A stretch of 60,468 nucleotides of DNA from Acidiphilium rubrum (lineage in GTDB: Bacteria > Pseudomonadota > Alphaproteobacteria > Acetobacterales > Acetobacteraceae): positions 1 through 60,468 of the forward strand of contig NZ_FTNE01000024.1 in NCBI RefSeq assembly GCF_900156265.1. Reading direction: 5' to 3'. Position 1 is the stretch's first letter; each line of letters starts with the position of its first letter. Positions 16,929-26,514 of this stretch are shown one piece after another. The translations under genes and the position numbers were made by a program. A model generated the notes under the pieces. The model was not told where the DNA came from. It searched no databases and was given only the letters and a program-made list of their open reading frames with translations.

Positions 16929-18281
16929 ATGGACACGTTTTCCCTGCTGGCGCGCTACGATCGCCGACTGCCGCGCTACACAAGTTACCCGACGGCCGCG
17001 AACTTCGATACGCGGGTCAATGCCAGGACCTATCGGCGCTGGCTTGGCGCGATCCCTGAGGGCAGCGCAGCCTCGCTTTATCTGCATGTGCCGTTCTGCG
17101 CCAGCCTGTGCTGGTTTTGTGGCTGCAACACCAGCGTGGTGCACAGTGTTGGCGCCCTTGAGCGTTATGCGGCGGCGATGGTGGCGGAAATCGAGAGGGT
17201 CGCTGCGGCGATCGGCCATCGTCTGCCGGTGCGTCATGTTCATTGGGGTGGCGGCACGCCGACCGCCTTGCCCGCCCCCCTGATGCAGGCGATCGATGCC
17301 GCACTGCGCCGGCATTTCATGATCGACGGTGCGACCGAAATCGCGATCGAGCTCGATCCGCGCACGCTGCCCGCGACGGCCGAGGCCGATCTGCGCGCGC
17401 TCGGGATCGGCCGTGCCAGCCTGGGGGTGCAGGATTTTTCACCGCTGGTGCAGGAGGCGATCGGCCGGCACCAGAGCGTGGCCGAGACGCGCGATGCCGC
17501 GACGGTTGCGCGTGTGGCCGGCGCCCGCTCGATCAATCTCGATCTGGTCTATGGGCTGCCGCAGCAGACCGTCGCGTCGCTCGAGGCGACGATTGCGTCG
17601 GTCCTCGAGATCGAACCGGACCGGATCGCGCTCTATGGCTATGCCCATGTGCCCTGGATGCAGAAACGTCAGGCGGTGCTGGCCGGTTTCGACCTGCCCG
17701 ATGCGGCGGCGCGGCTGTGCCAGCAGACCCGCGCGGCGGCGATGCTGGTCGAGGCCGGGTATCGCAGGATCGGTCTCGATCATTTCGCGAAACCCGATGA
17801 TCCCATGGCTCAGGCCCGCGGCACACCGCGCTTGCGGCGCAATTTTCAGGGCTACACATTGGATGACGCCGCCGTGCTGATCGGGTTCGGTGCTTCCGCG
17901 ATCTCGGCGTTACCGCAAGGCTACGCGCAGAACGTGACACGGACGATCGAGTATCTCGATGCGATCGAAACCGCGACGCTGGCTACCGCGCGCGGCATCG
18001 CGAGGACGGCGCAGGATGACCTGCGCAGTCGGATCATCGAGCGGTTGATGTGCGATCTGACCGTCGATGTCGCGTCGATCGCGGACGCCGCCGGCATGGA
18101 TGGCGCGACGCTCGATGACGCGTGGCCGCAGCTCGAACCGCTGGAGACCGATGGGTTGATCCGGCGCAACGGCGCGGTTGTTACGATCACCGAGGCGGGC
18201 TGGCCGTTTCTGCGCTGTGTCGCCGCGTGTTTCGATCAGTATCTGGACCCGCAGGCTTCGCGCCATGCTGCGGCGATCTGA
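16929..18281 (+). CDS. hemN: Oxygen-independent coproporphyrinogen III oxidase (HemN-like radical SAM)
   Basis: The 450-residue protein has the radical SAM CxxxCxxC motif (Cys57, Cys61, Cys64 in CASLCWFC), preceded by the HemN-type N-terminus RYTSYPTA and LYLHVPFC, then GGGTPTALP and LGVQDF. HemN decarboxylates coproporphyrinogen III to protoporphyrinogen IX without O2 in the cytoplasm. The N-terminal RYTSYPTAANF tag and the length favour true HemN over HemW. The perfect FNR box explains low-oxygen induction. No Shine-Dalgarno is visible before the ATG, in line with a possible leaderless mRNA. Confidence 0.92.
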   Translation: MDTFSLLARYDRRLPRYTSYPTAANFDTRVNARTYRRWLGAIPEGSAASLYLHVPFCASLCWFCGCNTSVVHSVGALERYAAAMVAEIERVAAAIGHRLPVRHVHWGGGTPTALPAPLMQAIDAALRRHFMIDGATEIAIELDPRTLPATAEADLRALGIGRASLGVQDFSPLVQEAIGRHQSVAETRDAATVARVAGARSINLDLVYGLPQQTVASLEATIASVLEIEPDRIALYGYAHVPWMQKRQAVLAGFDLPDAAARLCQQTRAAAMLVEAGYRRIGLDHFAKPDDPMAQARGTPRLRRNFQGYTLDDAAVLIGFGASAISALPQGYAQNVTRTIEYLDAIETATLATARGIARTAQDDLRSRIIERLMCDLTVDVASIADAAGMDGATLDDAWPQLEPLETDGLIRRNGAVVTITEAGWPFLRCVAACFDQYLDPQASRHAAAI

Positions 18282-18298: not shown

Positions 18299-18847
18299 TC
18301 ACGCTGAGGGAGTTGGTGCCCGATCGGGCGTGCCTGCGAGGTTTGAGGCAAAGCCGATCAATCCTTGCAGGATCGCGACCGGGTCGGGCGGGCAGCCGGG
18401 GATGTGCAGATCGACCGCGATCACCTGCGATGCCGCGCCGAGGCAGGCGGGGCTGGCCGCGAACATTCCGCCGGTGCAGGCGCATTCGCCGATCGCGATG
18501 ACGAATTTCGGTGCCGGCATCGCCTCATGGGTGAGACGCAGGGCGGCGTGCATGGCGCGCGTCATCGGGCCGGTGATCATCAGCACATCGGCGTGGCGGG
18601 GCGAGGCGACGAATTTCAGGCCGAAGCGTTCCAGATCGTAAAACGGGTTGCCGAGGGCAATGAGCTCCAGTTCGCAGCCGTTGCAGGAGCCCGCATCGAA
18701 GGCGCGGATCGCGAGCGAGCGGCCGAGGCTGTGCCGGGCCACGCGGTCGAGTTCGGCGGCCAGGGCCGCTGGCTCGCCGGGTGTGATGCTCGGTGCCGGT
18801 TCGGTGAGCCGGCCGCGCCACAGGTTTTCGATCAGGGTTCTGCGCAT
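18299..18847 (-). CDS. Hydrogenase-4/complex I-like 4Fe-4S small subunit (HyfI/NuoB type)
   Basis: The 182-residue protein has four cysteines suited to an N2-type cluster: Cys55 and Cys58 (SCNGCE), Cys122 (GEC) and Cys152 (PGCPPDP). The order matches HyfI, HycG and NuoB. It would carry electrons next to the large subunit on the cytoplasmic side of a membrane complex. It is the last gene of a six-subunit operon and starts 6 bp after the large-subunit stop. It converges on hemN with 17 bp between stops. Confidence 0.9.
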   Translation of the reverse strand: MRRTLIENLWRGRLTEPAPSITPGEPAALAAELDRVARHSLGRSLAIRAFDAGSCNGCELELIALGNPFYDLERFGLKFVASPRHADVLMITGPMTRAMHAALRLTHEAMPAPKFVIAIGECACTGGMFAASPACLGAASQVIAVDLHIPGCPPDPVAILQGLIGFASNLAGTPDRAPTPSA

Positions 18848-18853
18848 CGGTGC

Positions 18854-20257
18854 CTACAGGTCGCAGCCGGAATAGCTGGGGTTGAACGATTTGTTGCAGA
18901 GCGGGAAATCCGCGACGATGTTGCCCGCGATCGCGGTTTCCAGCGCCGGCCAGAAAAACCACGACGGGTCGCGCAGCATCGCATCCTCGACCATATCGTT
19001 GTGCAGGCGGACATGGGCGAAAATATCGCCGCGGAAGCCTTCGATCAGCGCATGCCCGGTGGTGGGGCCGGCCGGTGTGGGCAACGCGGTTTGCAGCGCG
19101 CCGTGCGGCAGGGTGGCCAGCAGGTTATCGATCAGCGCCGCACTCTGGTCGAGTTCCGCCATGCGAATCCGCAGCCGCGCATCGACATCGCCGCCCGTCC
19201 GGCAGGGCACCACGAAGCGGCCTGTGTCGTAGGGCGGGTAGGGTGCATCGCGCCTTGCATCGAAATCCTGGCCGGAGGCACGGCCGACATAGCCGCCGCA
19301 GCCGAGGCGCTGGGCGATCGCCGGGTCGAGCCGGCCGGTAGTGGCGACGCGGTCCTGCAAGGAGGCGGTCTTTTCGTAGAGTTCGAACAACCGCCGCCAC
19401 TGCGCGAGCAGATCGGGCAGGCCAGCGCGCAGCAGGGCCGCGTTGTCGGCACTCAGGTCGCGCGCGACGCCGCCGGGGATGATGATGTCCATCATCAAAC
19501 GATGCCCGAAACACGCGGCGCACAGGCGCAGCACCCGTTCACGCAGACCGGCGGTGAGCGCGTGCATCAGGGGAAATCCGCCATCGTTGCAGATCGCACC
19601 GATGTCGCCGAAATGATTGGCGAGGCGTTCAAGCTCCGCCATCACGCCGCGCAACGCCGCGGCGCGCGGCGGGGCGGCGATGCCGAGCGCCTGCTCCGCC
19701 GCGCGGGCGAAGGCGAAGGCGTATGCCACGGTGGAATCGCCGGAAATCCGCCCGGCGAGGCGCGCGGCGTGCCCAATCGTCTGGTCGCGCATCAGGCCCA
19801 GCGTGGCTTTGTGCGTGTAGCCGAGCCGGACTTCGAGCCTGACCACGGTTTCGCCGTTGACCGAGAAGCGAAAATGGCCGGGCTCGATGATCCCGGCGTG
19901 CACCGGACCCACCGGGATCTGATGAATGCCGGGGCCGAGTGCTGGTTTGAATTCGTAGGCGGCGCTGTGATCGAGCCAGGGGCGGGGGTCCGGCGTGTCA
20001 TCGGCGGCGAGCCCGTGCAGGTCGCACAAAGCGCGTTCCATCAGGATCGCACCGGGATGATGGCGCGCGATCGAGGGGAAATGCCCGCCCTCAGTGACTA
20101 GGCTGAGCACGCTGATCGCGCCCGATCCGTGCGGCCGGGTGGCCAGATGCACCACGGCGGCATCATCCGCGGGTTCGGCCCAGAGGGCGACGAACACCGA
20201 GGCGCCGGTTGCCAGCGCGGCGGCTTCTTGCTGCCAGAGCGGCGGATCGATTTTCAT
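18854..20257 (-). CDS. HyfG/NuoCD-like large subunit lacking nickel ligands
   Basis: The 467-residue protein combines a NuoC-like N-terminal part (about residues 1-110) with a NuoD / NiFe-hydrogenase large-subunit fold: GPVHAGIIEPGHFRF at 117-131 and LGYTHKATLGLM near 145-156. At the first nickel motif, where hydrogenases have RICGxC, it reads GRISGDS (169-175). At the C-terminus, where hydrogenases have DPCxxC, it reads NPSYSGC. No NiFe site can therefore form. It fits energy-converting hydrogenase-related (Ehr) complexes rather than a hydrogenase. Start ATG at 20257; the longer frame is less likely. Confidence 0.88.
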   Translation of the reverse strand: MKIDPPLWQQEAAALATGASVFVALWAEPADDAAVVHLATRPHGSGAISVLSLVTEGGHFPSIARHHPGAILMERALCDLHGLAADDTPDPRPWLDHSAAYEFKPALGPGIHQIPVGPVHAGIIEPGHFRFSVNGETVVRLEVRLGYTHKATLGLMRDQTIGHAARLAGRISGDSTVAYAFAFARAAEQALGIAAPPRAAALRGVMAELERLANHFGDIGAICNDGGFPLMHALTAGLRERVLRLCAACFGHRLMMDIIIPGGVARDLSADNAALLRAGLPDLLAQWRRLFELYEKTASLQDRVATTGRLDPAIAQRLGCGGYVGRASGQDFDARRDAPYPPYDTGRFVVPCRTGGDVDARLRIRMAELDQSAALIDNLLATLPHGALQTALPTPAGPTTGHALIEGFRGDIFAHVRLHNDMVEDAMLRDPSWFFWPALETAIAGNIVADFPLCNKSFNPSYSGCDL

Positions 20258-20264
20258 GGCCGCT

Positions 20265-21713
20265 TCATCCCAGCATGGTCGCGACATGCGCGAACCAGGC
20301 ATAGAGAAACGCCGGCATCGCGAGGCCGATCAGCAGCACGATGCCGAGATGCAGGAAAATCGGCACCGACGAGGCGCTGATCGGGTGCGATCCCTCGCTC
20401 GGCGCGCCGAAACATAGCGTCGTCATGCGCAGCAGCAGCGCGCCGAACGCCAGCAATATGCCGAACCCGAGCAGCACCGCCAGCACCGGGGCGCGCGCGA
20501 AGGTCGAGGTGATCAGCAGGAATTCCGATGTGAAGATGCCGAACGGCGGCAGGCCGGCGATGGCAGCGACGCCGGCCACCAGCGTCCAGCCGAGCAGCGG
20601 GTGGCTGGTGGTCAGCCCGGTGATCGCGGCGATTTTCTGGGTGCCCTTGGCCTGCGCGATGTGGCCGACCGAAAAGAAGATCGCGGATTTGGTCAGCGAG
20701 TGCATCATCATCTGCAACAGGCCGGCGATGTTGCCGAGCGGGCCACCGATGCCGAAGGCGAACGCGATGATGCCCATATGCTCGATCGAGGAATAGGCGA
20801 ACAGGCGTTTGATGTCGCGCCGCCGGTACAGCATGAGGGCCGCGAAAAACAACGAGAGCAATCCAACGCCGATCATCAATATGCCGGGCTCGATCGTCGC
20901 ATGGCTCATCGCCAGCACCATTTTGAACCGCAGGATGGCGTAGAGGGCGACGTTCAGCAGCAGGCCGGACAGCACGGCGGAAATCGGCGTCGGCCCCTCC
21001 GCATGGGCATCCGGCAGCCAGGCGTGCATCGGCACCAGCCCGGCCTTGGTGCCGTAGCCGATCAGCAGGAAAATGAACCCGACATTGAGCAGTGCCGGGT
21101 CGAGCGCCGCGGCGTGGTGGCGCAGATTACTCCATTGCATCGCCGCCATCCCGGTGCCCAGCACCGGCTTGGCCGCGAGATAGACCAGGATGGTGCCGAA
21201 CAGCGCGAGCGCGATGCCGACGCTGCCGAGAATGAGGTATTTCCACGACGCCTCGATCGAGGCCGGGGTGCGGTAGATGCCCACCATCATCACGGTCGAC
21301 AGTGTGGCGAGTTCGACGCCGAACCACATCAGGCCAAGATTGTTGGTGATCAGGGCGAGATTCATCCCCACCATCATCACCTGGTACATTGCGTGATAGA
21401 ATCGCAGATAGCGCGGTGTCAGATGCCCGGTTTGCAGTTCGTGCGCGATGTAGCTGGCGCTGAACAGGCTGGTGGTGCAGCCGACGAAACCGTTGAGCAG
21501 CAGGAAGACGATGTTCAGATCATCGATCAGGAACAGCGTGGTCGGCGCCGGCCGGTGCCAGAGCAGCAGGCACGCGGCCGCAATGGTCAGGACACTCGCG
21601 ATCACGTTGAGCCGCGCCGCCAGGCGCCAGGACGGCACCACGGCGAGGATGCCAGCAGCCGCTGCCGGGATGGCGATGGTGGCGATCACCGCATCGAACG
21701 CAAGACCGTTCAT
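20265..21713 (-). CDS. Proton-translocating antiporter-like membrane subunit (HyfF type)
   Basis: The 482-residue protein is a Mrp-antiporter / NuoM,N-like subunit with about 13-14 helices. It contains the conserved region MWFGVELATLSTVMMVGIY, the lysine-bearing IGYGTKAGLVPMHAWLPDAHAEGP loop, and YSSIEHMGIIAFAFG with LTKSAIFFSVGHI. These residues belong to the proton channel of this family. It starts with an ATGA overlap of the previous gene and would pump or conduct protons or sodium in the membrane arm. Confidence 0.9.
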   Translation of the reverse strand: MNGLAFDAVIATIAIPAAAAGILAVVPSWRLAARLNVIASVLTIAAACLLLWHRPAPTTLFLIDDLNIVFLLLNGFVGCTTSLFSASYIAHELQTGHLTPRYLRFYHAMYQVMMVGMNLALITNNLGLMWFGVELATLSTVMMVGIYRTPASIEASWKYLILGSVGIALALFGTILVYLAAKPVLGTGMAAMQWSNLRHHAAALDPALLNVGFIFLLIGYGTKAGLVPMHAWLPDAHAEGPTPISAVLSGLLLNVALYAILRFKMVLAMSHATIEPGILMIGVGLLSLFFAALMLYRRRDIKRLFAYSSIEHMGIIAFAFGIGGPLGNIAGLLQMMMHSLTKSAIFFSVGHIAQAKGTQKIAAITGLTTSHPLLGWTLVAGVAAIAGLPPFGIFTSEFLLITSTFARAPVLAVLLGFGILLAFGALLLRMTTLCFGAPSEGSHPISASSVPIFLHLGIVLLIGLAMPAFLYAWFAHVATMLG

Positions 21714-22387
21714 GACGCCTCACCGCGAAACGCATCGAGCGCCGTGCTGTCCACCGTGTCGAACCGCTCGCGGATGCGGAACAGAAACACCCCGATCACG
21801 ATGAAGGCGATCAGGACCGAGAAGGCGACGCTGATTTCCACCACCAGCGGCATCCCCTGCGCGCCGGCGGCGGCGAGGATCAGGCCGTTTTCGAGCGACA
21901 TGAACCCCGCGATCTGGCTGACCGCGTTGCGCCGCGTCACCATCATCAGCATCCCGAGCAGAATGACCGAGAGTGCGAGAGCAACGTCCTCGCGCGCTAG
22001 CGCATCGGCATGGGCGGCGGTGCGCAGCATCACCACCATCGAGAGCGCGACCAGCCCGATGCCGCCCAGCATGGTCAGGCTGATGCCGCCCACCGCCTCG
22101 ACCTGGCGGTGAATGCCGAAGCGCTCGACGATGCGGTGCAGCGCGATCGGGATCACGATCGCCTTGAAGCCGAGCGCCAGACCCGCCGTGATGTAAAGCT
22201 CCGGCGCGTGCTGGATATAGGCCTGCCAGCCGACCGCACAGCCGAGCACCGCGGCGTGCAGCGCGAGCACGTTGATCACGGACGACAGCCGGTCCTGGTA
22301 CAGCATCATGAAACTCACCAGCACCAGCGCGCCGGCCAGCACATGCGCGATGCTGAGTGCCGTGGCGGATGACATGACATGATCCAT
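21710..22387 (-). CDS. HyfE-like membrane subunit
   Basis: The 225-residue, strongly hydrophobic protein has about seven helices and resembles HyfE of hydrogenase-4 (a NuoK-related subunit), with FGIHRQVEAVGGISLTMLGGIGLV, LGMLMMVTRRNAVSQIAGFMSLENGLILAA and a C-terminal charged tail. The acidic residue in SLENG is the one conserved in NuoK/HyfE. Its ATG overlaps the stop of the HyfC-like gene (TGATG). Confidence 0.87.
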   Translation of the reverse strand: MDHVMSSATALSIAHVLAGALVLVSFMMLYQDRLSSVINVLALHAAVLGCAVGWQAYIQHAPELYITAGLALGFKAIVIPIALHRIVERFGIHRQVEAVGGISLTMLGGIGLVALSMVVMLRTAAHADALAREDVALALSVILLGMLMMVTRRNAVSQIAGFMSLENGLILAAAGAQGMPLVVEISVAFSVLIAFIVIGVFLFRIRERFDTVDSTALDAFRGEAS

Positions 22388-23343
22388 CACAGCGATGCCG
22401 AGACGAACAGCAGCAGCGTGCCGAGCAGGCCGAGCATCAGCGCGGCCCCGATGAAATTCGGCACCCGGAACACCCGCATCTTGGCGATCGCGGTTTCGAA
22501 CAGCGCGAGCAGCACGCCGCCGGCGGCGAGTTTCACCAGATAGGCGAACAGCCCGAGCGCCAGCGCGGCAGGCCCGGCGCCGGGTGCGGCAATCGCGACC
22601 GGGGCGAAGATGCAGACGATCAGCGACAGATACAAAATAAGCTTGAGCGCGTGGGCAAGCTCGATCAAGGCAAGATGCCGGCCGGAATACTCCAGCACCA
22701 TCGCCTCGTGCACCATGGTCAGTTCCAGATGCGTCGCGGGATTATCGACTGGAAACCGCCCGGTTTCGGCCAGCGCCACGATCACCAGCGCGACCAGCCC
22801 GAGCGCCAGCGACAGGCGCAACCCCTGGGTGCCTTCGTGCATGAACGTGGCGATGGCGGATAACTGGCTCGATCCTGCGACGAGTGCGACGGTGAACACG
22901 ATCATCAGCATCGCCGGTTCCGCGAGCGAGGCGAACATCGCCTCGCGGCTCGCCCCCAGCCCGCCGAACGCGGTGCCGATATCGAGGGCCGCCAGCATCT
23001 GGCAGAACCGCGCGGTGCCGAGCAGTGCGACGATCACGATCAGATCGCCCGACCATGAGAACAGCAGATCGGTCGCGAAACTCGGCACCAGCGAGGCCGA
23101 GACCCAGGTGATCGCGAACATCAGATAGGGCGCGGTGCTGAAAATCCACGAGGCATCGGTGGCGATGATCGCGTCCTTGCCGATCAGCTTGGCGAGATCG
23201 CGGTAAATTTGCAGCAGCGGCGGCCCGCTGCGGCGTTGCAGCCGGGCTTTCAGCACGCGGACAAACCCGGCCAGCAGCGGGGCCAGCGCCAGCATCAAGG
23301 CCATCTGCGCCAGTTGCAGCGCCAGCCTCGTGATCAACCCCAT
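22387..23343 (-). CDS. HyfC/NuoH-like membrane subunit
   Basis: The 318-residue protein belongs to the respiratory complex I subunit 1 family, with LLAGFVRVLKARLQRRSGPPLLQIYRDLAKLIGK after the first helix, EPAMLMIVFTVAL, and the conserved acidic loop LAETGRFPVDNPATHLELTMVHEAMVLEYSG. This subunit joins the membrane arm to the soluble module and forms the quinone-site region in complex I. The ATG at 23343 overlaps the HyfB-like stop by 10 bp. The frame is open upstream, but that part lies in the HyfB gene. Confidence 0.92.
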   Translation of the reverse strand: MGLITRLALQLAQMALMLALAPLLAGFVRVLKARLQRRSGPPLLQIYRDLAKLIGKDAIIATDASWIFSTAPYLMFAITWVSASLVPSFATDLLFSWSGDLIVIVALLGTARFCQMLAALDIGTAFGGLGASREAMFASLAEPAMLMIVFTVALVAGSSQLSAIATFMHEGTQGLRLSLALGLVALVIVALAETGRFPVDNPATHLELTMVHEAMVLEYSGRHLALIELAHALKLILYLSLIVCIFAPVAIAAPGAGPAALALGLFAYLVKLAAGGVLLALFETAIAKMRVFRVPNFIGAALMLGLLGTLLLFVSASL

Positions 23344-25373
23344 AGCGCGATCCAGCCGAGCAGCGCGACCAGCGCCATGAACACGAACGCGAGGTAGCGC
23401 CTTATGGTGAGGAATTGCAGCCGGTTGGTCTGCCCGGCCAGCCAGTCGATCGCACCGATCAGGGGCGCATACAGCAAAGACCACGCGGGATCGCTCCAGC
23501 GCAGGTTCAGCCGCGCCGGGTGCGCCTCGCCCGGCAGCGGCAGCGTGGCCTCGTCATGCGCGCGAAATATCACGCCGGCGAACACCCGGCGGATTGGCTG
23601 GACGAAGCCCGAGGGCGAATATTGCGTGATGAGCGTGCGCGCCGGCGGGCCGAATTCCTGATAGCCGCAGCCCCAGGCGGGCGCGCGGCGCGTGATGCGC
23701 ACGCCGAACCGGCGCAGCGCGAGCGCGCCGATGACCGCGCTGATCGCGATGAACAGGGCGATCAGCAGCGGATCATACGCATTCTGGCGGGAAGCGACCG
23801 GCACGATCGTCAGCCACGACAGGCCGGCTTGCGTGCTCACCCGCGCGCCGAGCAGGGCGTGGGTGACCGGTGCCAACAGATCGATCGCGAAACCAGGCAG
23901 CAGGCCGGCGGCGACACACAGCGCCGCCAGCACGATCATGGCGCTGAGCGACCATCGATCGGTCTCTTGCGCGGCGGCGGCGGCGGTTCCGCGCGCGCGG
24001 CCGAGATAGGCAATGCCATAGAGGCGCACAAAACACGCCGCGGCGAACGCCGCCGACAGGGCGACCAACGCGCCGATCGCCGGCACCGCCAGTTTCAGAC
24101 CGAATTGCGGCAGTGCGGGGCTGAGCAGGATCGCCTGCAACAGCAACCATTCCGAGGCAAACCCGTTGAGCGGCGGCAGGGCGGCAATCGCCAACGCGGC
24201 GATCAGCATCGGCACCGCGCTGCGCCGCATCCGGTGGATCAGCCCGCCCAGTTGCGCGAGATCACGCGTGCCGGTCGCGTGCTGGATCGCGCCGGCGCCG
24301 AAAAACAGCGTCGATTTGAACAGCATGTGGTTCAGCGCATGGAACAATGCCGCGGTCAGCGCCAGGGCGGCCGCCGCCATCATGCCATCGGCCTTGAACG
24401 CCAGCGCCAGACCCAGACCGACGAAGATCAGCCCGACGTTTTCGATCGTGCTGTAGGCCAGAATCGTCTTGATATCGTCTTCCATCAGCGCATACAGCAC
24501 GCCGAGCACCGCGGTCATGCCGCCGGCCAGCAGCACCACCAGCCCCCACCACCAGGCGGGCGGGCCGGCGAGGTCGAACGCGATGCGAATGAACGCATAG
24601 ACCGCGACCTTGGTCATCACCCCGCTCATCAGCGCCGAAACATGGCTGGGTGCGGCGGGGTGCGCGCGCGGCAGCCACACATGCAGCGGCACCAAGCCCG
24701 CCTTCGACCCCGCGCCGAGCAACGCCAGGATCATCACCGCCGATCCGATCCAGCGTGCGCGCGGCACCGCCCGCATCGCCGCGAAGGCGTAATCCCCCGC
24801 CGGTCCCGCGAGCAGGCCGAAACACAGCAGCAGCGCGAGCGTGCCCGCGCTCGCCATCAACAGATAGATCACACCGGCGCGCCTCGTCGCGGCCTCGCTA
24901 TGGTGCGCCATCACCAGCGCCCAGGATGCCAGCGACATCACTTCCCAGCACAGCAGAAACCCATAGGCATCCGCCGCGATCACCACGAGGTTCATGGCGG
25001 CCAGAAACACCGGATAGACCGGCAGCACGCGCCAGGGTTCGGCCTCGTGGCGCGCATAGCCGAGCGCGAACAGGCTGGCCGCCGCCCCACCGATATTGGC
25101 GATGATCAGAAACGCCGCCGCCAGATCATCCATGCCGAACTGCATTCCGAGCCCAGACGCTCCGAGATGGGGCAAGCCGATCGGCAGAACCACGAGCGGG
25201 TCAGGTGCGATGCCGAGCGCCAGCTGCGCCAGCGCCGCCAGCAACGCGACCACCGCGATGGCGAGCGAGCCGCCATAAACGATCATCCGCCCGGCCGGAC
25301 GGCGCGCGAGCACGCCACCCACCCCGCCGAGGATGAGCGACGCCGCGGCACACATCAGGATGATCGGTGTCAC
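23334..25373 (-). CDS. Proton-translocating antiporter-like subunit with long C-terminus (HyfB type)
   Basis: The 679-residue protein is a NuoL/HyfB-like subunit with 14 or more helices. It contains LCWEVMSLASWALVMAHHSEAATRRAGV, the GAGSKAGLVPLHVWLPRAHPAAPS loop, YSTIENVGLIFVGLG and HALNHMLFKSTLFFGAGAI, all typical of hydrogenase-4 component B. The C-terminal part (WGCGYQEFGPPARTLITQYSPSGFVQPIRRVF) is characteristic of HyfB. The start is a GTG at 25373, only one base after the stop of the XRE regulator, so the regulator and the complex are probably cotranscribed and coupled. Confidence 0.9.
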   Translation of the reverse strand: MTPIILMCAAASLILGGVGGVLARRPAGRMIVYGGSLAIAVVALLAALAQLALGIAPDPLVVLPIGLPHLGASGLGMQFGMDDLAAAFLIIANIGGAAASLFALGYARHEAEPWRVLPVYPVFLAAMNLVVIAADAYGFLLCWEVMSLASWALVMAHHSEAATRRAGVIYLLMASAGTLALLLCFGLLAGPAGDYAFAAMRAVPRARWIGSAVMILALLGAGSKAGLVPLHVWLPRAHPAAPSHVSALMSGVMTKVAVYAFIRIAFDLAGPPAWWWGLVVLLAGGMTAVLGVLYALMEDDIKTILAYSTIENVGLIFVGLGLALAFKADGMMAAAALALTAALFHALNHMLFKSTLFFGAGAIQHATGTRDLAQLGGLIHRMRRSAVPMLIAALAIAALPPLNGFASEWLLLQAILLSPALPQFGLKLAVPAIGALVALSAAFAAACFVRLYGIAYLGRARGTAAAAAQETDRWSLSAMIVLAALCVAAGLLPGFAIDLLAPVTHALLGARVSTQAGLSWLTIVPVASRQNAYDPLLIALFIAISAVIGALALRRFGVRITRRAPAWGCGYQEFGPPARTLITQYSPSGFVQPIRRVFAGVIFRAHDEATLPLPGEAHPARLNLRWSDPAWSLLYAPLIGAIDWLAGQTNRLQFLTIRRYLAFVFMALVALLGWIALWG

Positions 25374-25374
25374 G

Positions 25375-25632
25375 TCACATCACGTCGCCCTTCAGCCGAA
25401 CGCCGCGCCCCGCGCCGGCATCGGACACGTCGCCAGGCCGGATCACGATGATCCCGGCCCGATCGAGCGCATCGAGCAGCTTCATGAGGGAATCGACATT
25501 GCCGCGCACGACACCCTCGCTCCCCTCCATCCGCTGGATCGTCGGTAGCGACAGGCCGGACAGCTCGGCCAGCTGTTTCTGGTCGATGCCCAGGAGCGCC
25601 CTGGCGGCTTTCAGCTGCCCAGCCGATATCAT
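25375..25632 (-). CDS. Small XRE-family regulator heading the Ehr-like operon
   Basis: The 85-residue protein has an N-terminal Cro/C1 helix-turn-helix: AGQLKAARALLGIDQKQLAELSGLSLPTIQRMEGSEG. A short domain follows with SLMKLLDALDRAGIIVIRPGD, which resembles the HTH proteins whose C-terminus predicts an age/size-like epitope. The ATG at 25632 starts the recognised part; the frame is open to 25740 but with unrelated sequence. Its stop is one base before the first antiporter subunit. Repeats of AAACATG lie just upstream. Confidence 0.83.
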   Translation of the reverse strand: MISAGQLKAARALLGIDQKQLAELSGLSLPTIQRMEGSEGVVRGNVDSLMKLLDALDRAGIIVIRPGDVSDAGAGRGVRLKGDVM

Positions 25633-25637
25633 GTATG

Positions 25638-25663
25638 AAACATGGATATAAACATGTGAACAT
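25638..25663. promoter_or_regulatory. AAACATG repeats upstream of the XRE gene
   Basis: Two exact AAACATG copies (25638-25644 and 25650-25656) are spaced 12 bp start to start and are followed by GAACAT at 25658-25663. They sit 5-31 bp upstream of the XRE start, in a low-GC patch that could also hold the operon promoter. They could be autoregulatory half-sites. Confidence 0.35.
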
Positions 25664-25803
25664 CTATAACCAACTCTCTGAAGTTGAAAAGAGCCGAGTG
25701 GGCATTGCCGCCGTGCGGTGCCCCGCGCTTGCGTGATCATCGGGATGGGTGGCGCGAGGCCGCTGATCGTCGTCTAATCCCTGACCTTGAAGGAGATAAT
25801 GGC

Positions 25804-26514
25804 ATGACCCTCGCACCAACCGCAGCGTTTCACCGCGCCCTGATCGTCGGCGCCGGGTCTGGGCTGAGCGCATCGCTGGCCCGGTTGTTCGCGGGCCATG
25901 GGCTCAGCGTGGCGCTGGCGGCCCGCACGACCGAAAAACTGGCACCCCTCTGCGCTGAAACCGGCGCCCGCGCCTTCACCTGCGATGCCGGCAATCAAGC
26001 GTCGGTGGCGGACCTGTTCACGGCGGTCGAGGCCGCGATCGGCAGCCCCGATGTCGTGATCTATAACGCATCCGGGCGGCTGCGCGGCCCGATCGAGACG
26101 CTGGACCCCGCCGATGTCGCAAGGGCGCTCGAAATCTCGGCATTCGGCGGCTTCCTGGTCGGCCAGCAGGCGGCACGGCGCATGATCCCGCAGCATCACG
26201 GCGCGATTCTGTTCACCGGCGCGTCCGCCAGTATCAAGGGCTATCCGCAATCCGCCCCGTTCGCGATGGGCAAATTCGCCCTGCGCGGCCTGGCTCAGAG
26301 CATGGCGCGCGAACTGGCACCCCAGGGCGTCCATGTCGCGCATTTCGTGATCGACGGCGGCATCGCCTCGGCCAGCCGCCCGGTACCCGCCGAAGCGCCG
26401 GACAGCCTGCTCGACCCCGACGCGATCGCTCTGACCTATTGGCAGATCCTGCATCAACCGCGCAGCGCCTGGACCTGGGAGATCGAACTCCGGCCCTGGG
26501 TCGAGCGGTTCTGA
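25804..26514 (+). CDS. SDR family oxidoreductase with Phe in place of catalytic Tyr
   Basis: The 236-residue protein has the nucleotide-binding VGAGSGLSASLARLF (about 15-29), VVIYNASGRLRGP and a late segment HVAHFVIDGGI. In the active site it reads SAPFAMGKFALRGLAQ, so the residue aligned with catalytic Tyr is Phe153 while Lys157 is kept. This FxxxK form is common in one SDR subfamily, so it is probably genuine. The ATG at 25804 follows AAGGAGAT; a second ATG 5 bp earlier is out of frame. It is divergent from the XRE regulator, and its substrate is unknown. Confidence 0.83.
   Translation: MTLAPTAAFHRALIVGAGSGLSASLARLFAGHGLSVALAARTTEKLAPLCAETGARAFTCDAGNQASVADLFTAVEAAIGSPDVVIYNASGRLRGPIETLDPADVARALEISAFGGFLVGQQAARRMIPQHHGAILFTGASASIKGYPQSAPFAMGKFALRGLAQSMARELAPQGVHVAHFVIDGGIASASRPVPAEAPDSLLDPDAIALTYWQILHQPRSAWTWEIELRPWVERF

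Follow-up and report, generated by a model that had tools for sequence, protein, structure and literature searches.

The operon described here lies in a window of 60,468 nucleotides (the whole stretch of Acidiphilium rubrum DNA that was analysed) and is hyqRBCEFGI, already known as the 'endo-hydrogenase' operon of Azorhizobium (2009–2012). Its large subunit has lost both nickel-binding cysteine pairs and the operon retains a cluster-bearing small subunit and two antiporter-like subunits; Hyq is not a [NiFe] hydrogenase and, in our judgement, is most likely (at about even odds) a redox-driven proton pump that works with a putative soluble carrier. The seven genes, an XRE regulator followed by HyfB-C-E-F-G-I, occupy the minus strand from 25632 to 18299 and either overlap by 4–10 bases or are separated by gaps of 1–7 bases (Table 1). 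The order R-B-C-E-F-G-I with the regulator first matches that of the published seven-gene operon, an identity that the original prediction had missed. The gene calls agree with the original prediction, which was made from the DNA letters, in the order and close packing of the six subunit genes, in the single base that separates the regulator's stop from the first subunit (which starts with GTG), and in the absence of HyfA and HyfH from the operon; HyfD is missing from it as well. The hydrogenase-4 membrane subunit model was the sole model match of HyqE, and the HyqG reading frame has an alternative open start at 20302. Purifying selection is apparent on all seven genes (dN/dS of 0.04–0.31 against three same-genus loci, with the comparison of HyqB to one of them, L037, covering 448 codons only), and the lowest values, 0.04–0.06, are those of the regulator hyqR.

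Table 1 The hyq operon and its predicted operator, in window coordinates.
Feature	Description	Length (aa)	Position	Strand	Basis or remark
HyqR operator (predicted)	CCATGTTTCATACATGA; consensus TGATGTNTNANACATCA, 3/14 scored bases differ		25629..25645	-	Overlaps hyqR start codon
hyqR	XRE-type HTH regulator (from MISAGQL)	85	25375..25632	-	PF01381 (HTH_3) above cut-off
hyqB (HyfB)	NuoL-like antiporter subunit	679	23334..25373	-	Hydrogenase 4 subunit B model above cut-off (Pfam, NCBIfam)
hyqC (HyfC)	NuoH-like subunit	318	22387..23343	-	PF00146 (NADHdh) and alignment
hyqE (HyfE)	Membrane subunit aligned with E. coli HyfE and NuoK		21710..22390	-	Alignment; NCBIfam PRK11492 below cut-off
hyqF (HyfF)	NuoM/NuoN-like antiporter subunit	482	20265..21713	-	Hydrogenase 4 subunit F model above cut-off
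hyqG (HyfG)	Large subunit without nickel ligands	467	18854..20257	-	Complex1_49kDa above, Complex1_30kDa just below cut-off
hyqI (HyfI)	Small subunit, one predicted 4Fe-4S site	182	18299..18847	-	PF01058 (Oxidored_q6), four Cys

When aligned with E. coli HycE and HyfG, HyqG displays RISGDS in place of RVCGIC and NPSYSG in place of DPCYSC. The [NiFe] group 4 ligand motifs RxCGxC and DPCxxC are absent and, as had been predicted, both nickel cysteine pairs are gone. Conservation was counted over 131 Hyq rows which, upon removal of 5 duplicates, gave 126 distinct rows (12 from this genus and 114 from others). The former nickel positions hold Ser at 172, Ser/Ala/Thr at 175, Ser/Ala/Thr/Gly at 461, and Gly at 464, with one exception. 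This is the HyqG of a Xanthobacteraceae MAG (locus L104), which alone among the Hyq rows retains a Cys at 172 (RTCGDS). Residues D174, D218, and H215 are invariant (126/126), and I124 and D225 are each found in 124 of the 126 rows. In place of the three Asp (D174, D218, and D225), HycE and HyfG of E. coli carry Ile, Asn, and Phe. Judging from the alignment, the conserved residues would line one pocket, and the emptied HyqG pocket appears to carry a conserved residue set that is specific to Hyq, a feature that is new here.

Cysteines 223 and 454 are each present in all 12 genus rows and in 106 of the 114 others. Position 460 is a Cys in 100 of the 114 non-genus rows (Gly in 7, Ala in 6, and Leu in 1), whereas in the 12 genus rows it is always Pro or Ala, and a Cys is found at 465, a position at which none of the 114 others carries one. 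In the window's HyqG, the third conserved Cys position is a Pro and the Cys is at 465 instead. Among the 126 rows, only this genus has its last HyqG cysteine shifted five residues later, which is also new here. Cysteines 258, 491, and 497 of Azorhizobium HyqG have been called completely conserved. On the inferred mapping to these positions, C223 and C454 are kept in the window and the third cysteine is lost; compared by the published description, the position of Cys-497 is the one at which the window's protein has Pro, its own Cys following five residues further on. Because 14 of the 114 non-genus rows have Gly, Ala, or Leu at this position, the third cysteine is not universal. The notion that the loss of Cys-460 is always compensated by Cys-465 was rejected, as other lineages have lost the former without gaining the latter.

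In a quick tree of 57 rows that included two true hydrogenases and in which some distant rows had long branches, HyqG fell outside the E. coli HycE/HyfG pair (support of 99) and outside NuoD (support of 100), and the branch joining the Hyq-like rows had a support of 95. The nearest solved structure by profile is the large subunit of formate hydrogenlyase (7z0s_E, E value of 8.6e-85), followed by a membrane-bound hydrogenase (6cfw_L) and then by complex I. HypD, the one maturation gene searched for, had no match in the genome (completeness of 100), in keeping with the predicted lack of maturation genes at the locus. A true [NiFe] hydrogenase was rejected on the basis of the missing ligands, the tree, and the lack of a HypD match, and the tree and the HypD result uphold the claim that the operon encodes a nickel-less complex of the Ehr type. 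A group-4-like large subunit without Ni/Fe ligands is accompanied by antiporter-like subunits, the combination by which Ehr complexes are recognized. Such complexes (PMC6349859, PMC7894505, PMC10284858) resemble Hyq in having group-4-like subunits without nickel ligands, but they form a loose group. Within it, Hyq represents a particular six-subunit form, which is set apart by signature residues and, at many loci, by a dedicated regulator.

The Hyq operon shares subunits B, C, E, F, G, and I with E. coli Hyf/Hyc but differs in having no HyfA, HyfD, or HyfH, no nickel ligands, and no C-terminal tail, and its genome differs in having no HypD match. The tail of HycE/HyfG is removed by a protease; HyqG, instead, terminates with SGCDL at the end point of E. 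coli NuoCD. HyqG retains the EPGH motif common to HycE/HyfG and, furthermore, the complex-I-like loop GRASGxDFDARR, which is absent from E. coli HyfG. Hyq thus resembles respiratory complex I in its pump residues, N2-like cluster, GRASG loop, and C-terminus, but it has no NADH arm, and I124 and G173 of HyqG align with the His and Tyr positions of complex I, which we take to be the quinone-binding residues. Because of these replacements, a complex-I-like quinone site is not preserved in HyqG, which counts against the redox-driven pump.

In the membrane subunits, the pump residues E144, K224, K255, and E408 of HyqB and E134, K223, and E397 of HyqF are kept according to the alignment, and at one Lys position both HyqF and HyfF of E. 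coli carry Asn. These Glu and Lys residues are presumably those of the proton channels. The four cluster cysteines that the small subunit had been predicted to keep (residues 55, 58, 122, and 152 of HyqI) align with the four cysteines of E. coli HyfI and are present in 103 of 103 matched loci. The corresponding residues given for Azorhizobium are 55, 58, 112, and 152 (PMC2650096, PMC3357923).

We propose the following model for the functioning of Hyq. HyqBCEFGI would be a six-subunit core relative of complex I composed of two antiporter-like pumps, a NuoH-like heel, the HyfE link, the large subunit G, and the small subunit I with a single 4Fe-4S cluster. The movement of protons through HyqB and HyqF would be driven by, or would itself drive, redox changes in the HyqI cluster and in the Asp/Cys/Asn-lined HyqG pocket beside HyqC. 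Given the lack of HyfH/NuoI, a soluble low-potential carrier similar to ferredoxin or flavodoxin probably has access to the HyqI cluster, and its electron exchange would be with the quinone pool or with a small molecule bound in the HyqG pocket. Such a carrier would have to reach HyqI or HyqG directly, unless the chemistry takes place in HyqG itself. Pumping, its direction, the carrier, and the sign of HyqR action are all elements that we infer. No carrier gene linked to the operon was found in its flanks, which are annotated in part, and this counts against the model.

The genetics of Azorhizobium bear directly on this model. The Azorhizobium system is alike in its seven genes, their order, the leading regulator, and a HyqG devoid of both CxxC motifs. 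It differs in that its operon is NifA-dependent and its organism has nif and hup, whereas no nifD or hypD match was found here. According to the two reports, the hyq operon of A. caulinodans depends on NifA and its deletion lengthens diazotrophic doubling times by 21% (PMC2650096), HyqG of eight genera lacks both CxxC motifs, and hyq deletion shifts H2 evolution in both directions (PMC3357923). Namely, H2 evolution goes up at 20 µM O2 and, in a hupSL background, goes down below 1 µM O2, and a nifK hupSL strain still evolves much H2 (PMC3357923). The original prediction held the electron donor and acceptor of such complexes to be unknown, a statement that needs qualifying because hyq deletion in Azorhizobium changes H2 evolution; it also named H2 activity dependent on the locus as grounds for its refutation, and such activity has been claimed in print for this relative, although not with purified protein.

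The simplest interpretation of these results is that Hyq turns over H2, and they count against the pump reading. A rival proposal is that Hyq is a reversible H2:quinone oxidoreductase that operates without nickel, the endo-hydrogenase of Ludwig and co-workers, which in the window organism would act on environmental H2. The slower diazotrophic growth of the deletion mutant, both shifts in H2 evolution, the H2 output of the nifK hupSL strain, and the retention of the EPGH motif in HyqG speak for this proposal. It is nevertheless unlikely, given that the nickel ligands are absent, that the genome has no HypD match, and that many genomes with Hyq have no nifD match. Furthermore, the authors themselves consider a Ni,Fe site in HyqG uncertain, if not unlikely, and had no cell-free assay at hand, and Table 2 of their paper does not contain a nifK hupSL hyq strain (PMC3357923). 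The 2012 paper left the catalytic site of Hyq open (PMC3357923). The Azorhizobium data could also mean that Hyq supplies, or draws away, low-potential electrons on which nitrogenase depends, since nitrogenase evolves more H2 when its electron flux is low. That the nifK hupSL strain produces so much H2 argues that this would not be a complete explanation.

Another candidate function for Hyq is that of the membrane arm of a formate-linked system in which an unlinked formate dehydrogenase is the donor. An FDH-Ehr arrangement has been proposed for other phyla (PMC6349859), and a Geobacter Ehr is more abundant on formate (PMC7894505). An over-cut-off match to Fdh-alpha is present in the window's genome and, in the class sample described below, in 19 of 24 genomes with Hyq versus 126 of 265 without it (p = 0.005), an association that ignores kinship and genome size and is confounded. 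However, five of the 24 Hyq-positive genomes, some of which are incomplete, have no over-cut-off match, and no formate dehydrogenase is found near the annotated Rhizobium 3841 locus, which makes this function quite unlikely. Very unlikely, in our estimate, is a Hyq whose nickel-free pocket performs reversible two-electron chemistry (on H2 or some other small substrate) and is coupled to a proton pump with two channels. The Hyq-conserved residues that build the pocket would be D174, D218, C223-N-D225, and C454-N-K-S and, if true, the complex I/hydrogenase fold would have a third mode of catalysis in addition to quinone reduction and Ni-Fe chemistry. Finally, a pure ion antiporter with the redox arm as a structural remnant, although compatible with lost nickel ligands and retained pump residues, is highly improbable, as a remnant would need neither the HyqI cysteines kept in 103/103 loci nor D174 and D218 of HyqG kept in 126/126 rows.

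HyqG was found in all 13 genus genomes searched, with the orthologs in the 12 others displaying 62–94% identity, and these 13 genomes (completeness of 78 to 100) contained an over-cut-off match to NifD in one case and a match to HypD in four. No NifD match was found in the window's genome. In a class sample of 289 alphaproteobacterial genomes, including the window's own, HyqG (E value of 1e-60 or better) was present in 24, NifD in 8, and HypD in 19. Three of the 24 Hyq-positive genomes had nifD, five had hypD, and 19 had neither. The associations of Hyq with NifD (p = 0.02) and HypD (p = 0.01) are both positive, with kinship ignored, as would be expected from the published link, yet the majority of the genomes with Hyq contain neither of the two genes. 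The tie of Hyq to N2 fixation and [NiFe] maturation is therefore not general, which is new here, and, with 19 of 24 Hyq-positive genomes lacking nifD and hypD matches, a general H2-recycling role of the Azorhizobium type is unlikely. As nitrogenase (nifD) and hypD were not found in its genome, the job of Hyq in the window organism is probably different from that in nitrogen-fixers. In a phylum sample, HyqG was present in 62 of 398 genomes. The gene was also found in 62 plasmid records (Rhizobium 31, Azospirillum 8, Cupriavidus 6, Burkholderia 4, Paraburkholderia 4, and Rhodococcus 2, among others). Nineteen of these plasmids are predicted to be conjugative, and the two Rhodococcus records lie outside the phylum.

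The regulator accompanies the operon in many, but not all, loci. Of the 107 loci examined, 21 were too short or had no recognizable hyfB. Of the remaining 86, which include two duplicates, 49 have an XRE homolog within 800 nucleotides upstream of hyfB. The homolog is present in 11 of 11 same-genus loci examined, with genome G009, whose contig is short, left out. First-pass estimates of the gap between the two genes fall between −22 and 48 nucleotides in 45 of 47 cases. The first gene of the annotated Rhizobium johnstonii 3841 locus, a helix-turn-helix regulator, overlaps hyfB. This strain is, we assume, the one formerly called R. leguminosarum 3841. By analogy with this annotation, HyqR of Azorhizobium is probably an XRE protein as well. 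PMC2930871 lists hyq operons as locus-tag ranges that span seven or six genes. In the window's genome, hyqR has a single match at an E value of 0.01 or better, namely itself.

A palindrome, TGATGTNTNANACATCA, precedes hyqR in 46 of 48 hyqR-positive loci (2.9 expected from shuffles) and is found in none of 36 hyqR-negative loci (0.8 expected), in a set that includes many relatives and from which the motif itself was derived. The scan covered the 200 upstream nucleotides, allowed at most 4 mismatches in 14, and left out two duplicates. As the motif had been read off the tested loci, 20 further loci were added, in which the palindrome was present in 5 of 7 with hyqR (0.5 expected from shuffles) and in 0 of 13 without (0.3 expected); one of the 13 negatives, L214, is a copy of L142, which leaves 0 of 12. 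Palindrome and start codon share bases in 19 of the 48 loci, and at such sites the start codon and the next base provide three of the fourteen scored matches, which tells against the operator, as do the three mismatches of the window's own site. Of the other 29 loci, 16 have two mismatches or fewer. A 16-base pattern taken from the window site has one exact match in the genome, the site itself, and two matches with one mismatch.

The palindrome, which is new here, predicts autoregulation. HyqR would bind it over the hyqR start and control its own operon, as a repressor or an activator. The idea that the regulator controls its operon gains support from the contrast between 46/48 and 0/36 loci. 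No description of a HyqR operator was found in the available portions of the published hyq work (PMC2650096, PMC3357923, PMC2930871). The conserved predicted operator offers a handle on the complex, since the signal sensed by HyqR is likely to be the signal for Hyq. Strict patterns for NifA boxes and sigma-54 sites have no match in the 400 nucleotides upstream of the operon in the window. Across 55 loci with hyqR and 49 without it (the latter including a duplicate), such sites are no more frequent than in shuffled sequences, and NifA/sigma-54 control was thus rejected as a general rule. One sigma-54-like site, with two mismatches, occurs in a Bradyrhizobium locus (L080). Another XRE gene resembling hyqR is found on the opposite strand about 0.5 kb or less after hyfI in L080, L081, L082, L083, and L131, of which four belong to Bradyrhizobium and one to Xanthobacteraceae.

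No flanking gene cluster, and no extra partner gene, is common to all mapped loci, in which the genes were called mechanically and most are unannotated. In the window, hemN (oxygen-independent coproporphyrinogen III oxidase, 16929–18281) converges with the operon at a distance of 17 bases, an arrangement that recurs in the nearest relative (L034) and is absent from the other loci compared. The other flank contains an opposite-strand ORF (25684–26514) followed by an ORF that, judging from its translation, looks like a metal-transporting ATPase.

Annotation labels the hyq genes 'hydrogenase 4' although the nickel site is gone. In one genome paper (PMC10672854), the organism's only hydrogenase-4, which may or may not be hyq, is read as H2-producing. 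Two further Ehr-like types were noted. A reduced cluster beside RNase HII (L053, 9155–13611; contig C35 of the window's own genome, about 194154–198610) is present in eight genus genomes, the window's own and seven others. Its HyqI-like subunit keeps the CxxC, C, C pattern, its HyqG-like subunit has no nickel ligands, and its two membrane proteins are shrunken, the NuoH-like one having no Pfam match. The alignment suggests that the pump Glu/Lys region is missing from its NuoL-like protein, and in the quick tree the cluster falls on the Hyq side on a long branch. The other type, found in two same-genus genomes, G007 and G010 (L061, 5907–13381, and L062, 5647–13034), has the order C-E-F-G-I-B and the altered motif RVSGVG or RVSAVG.
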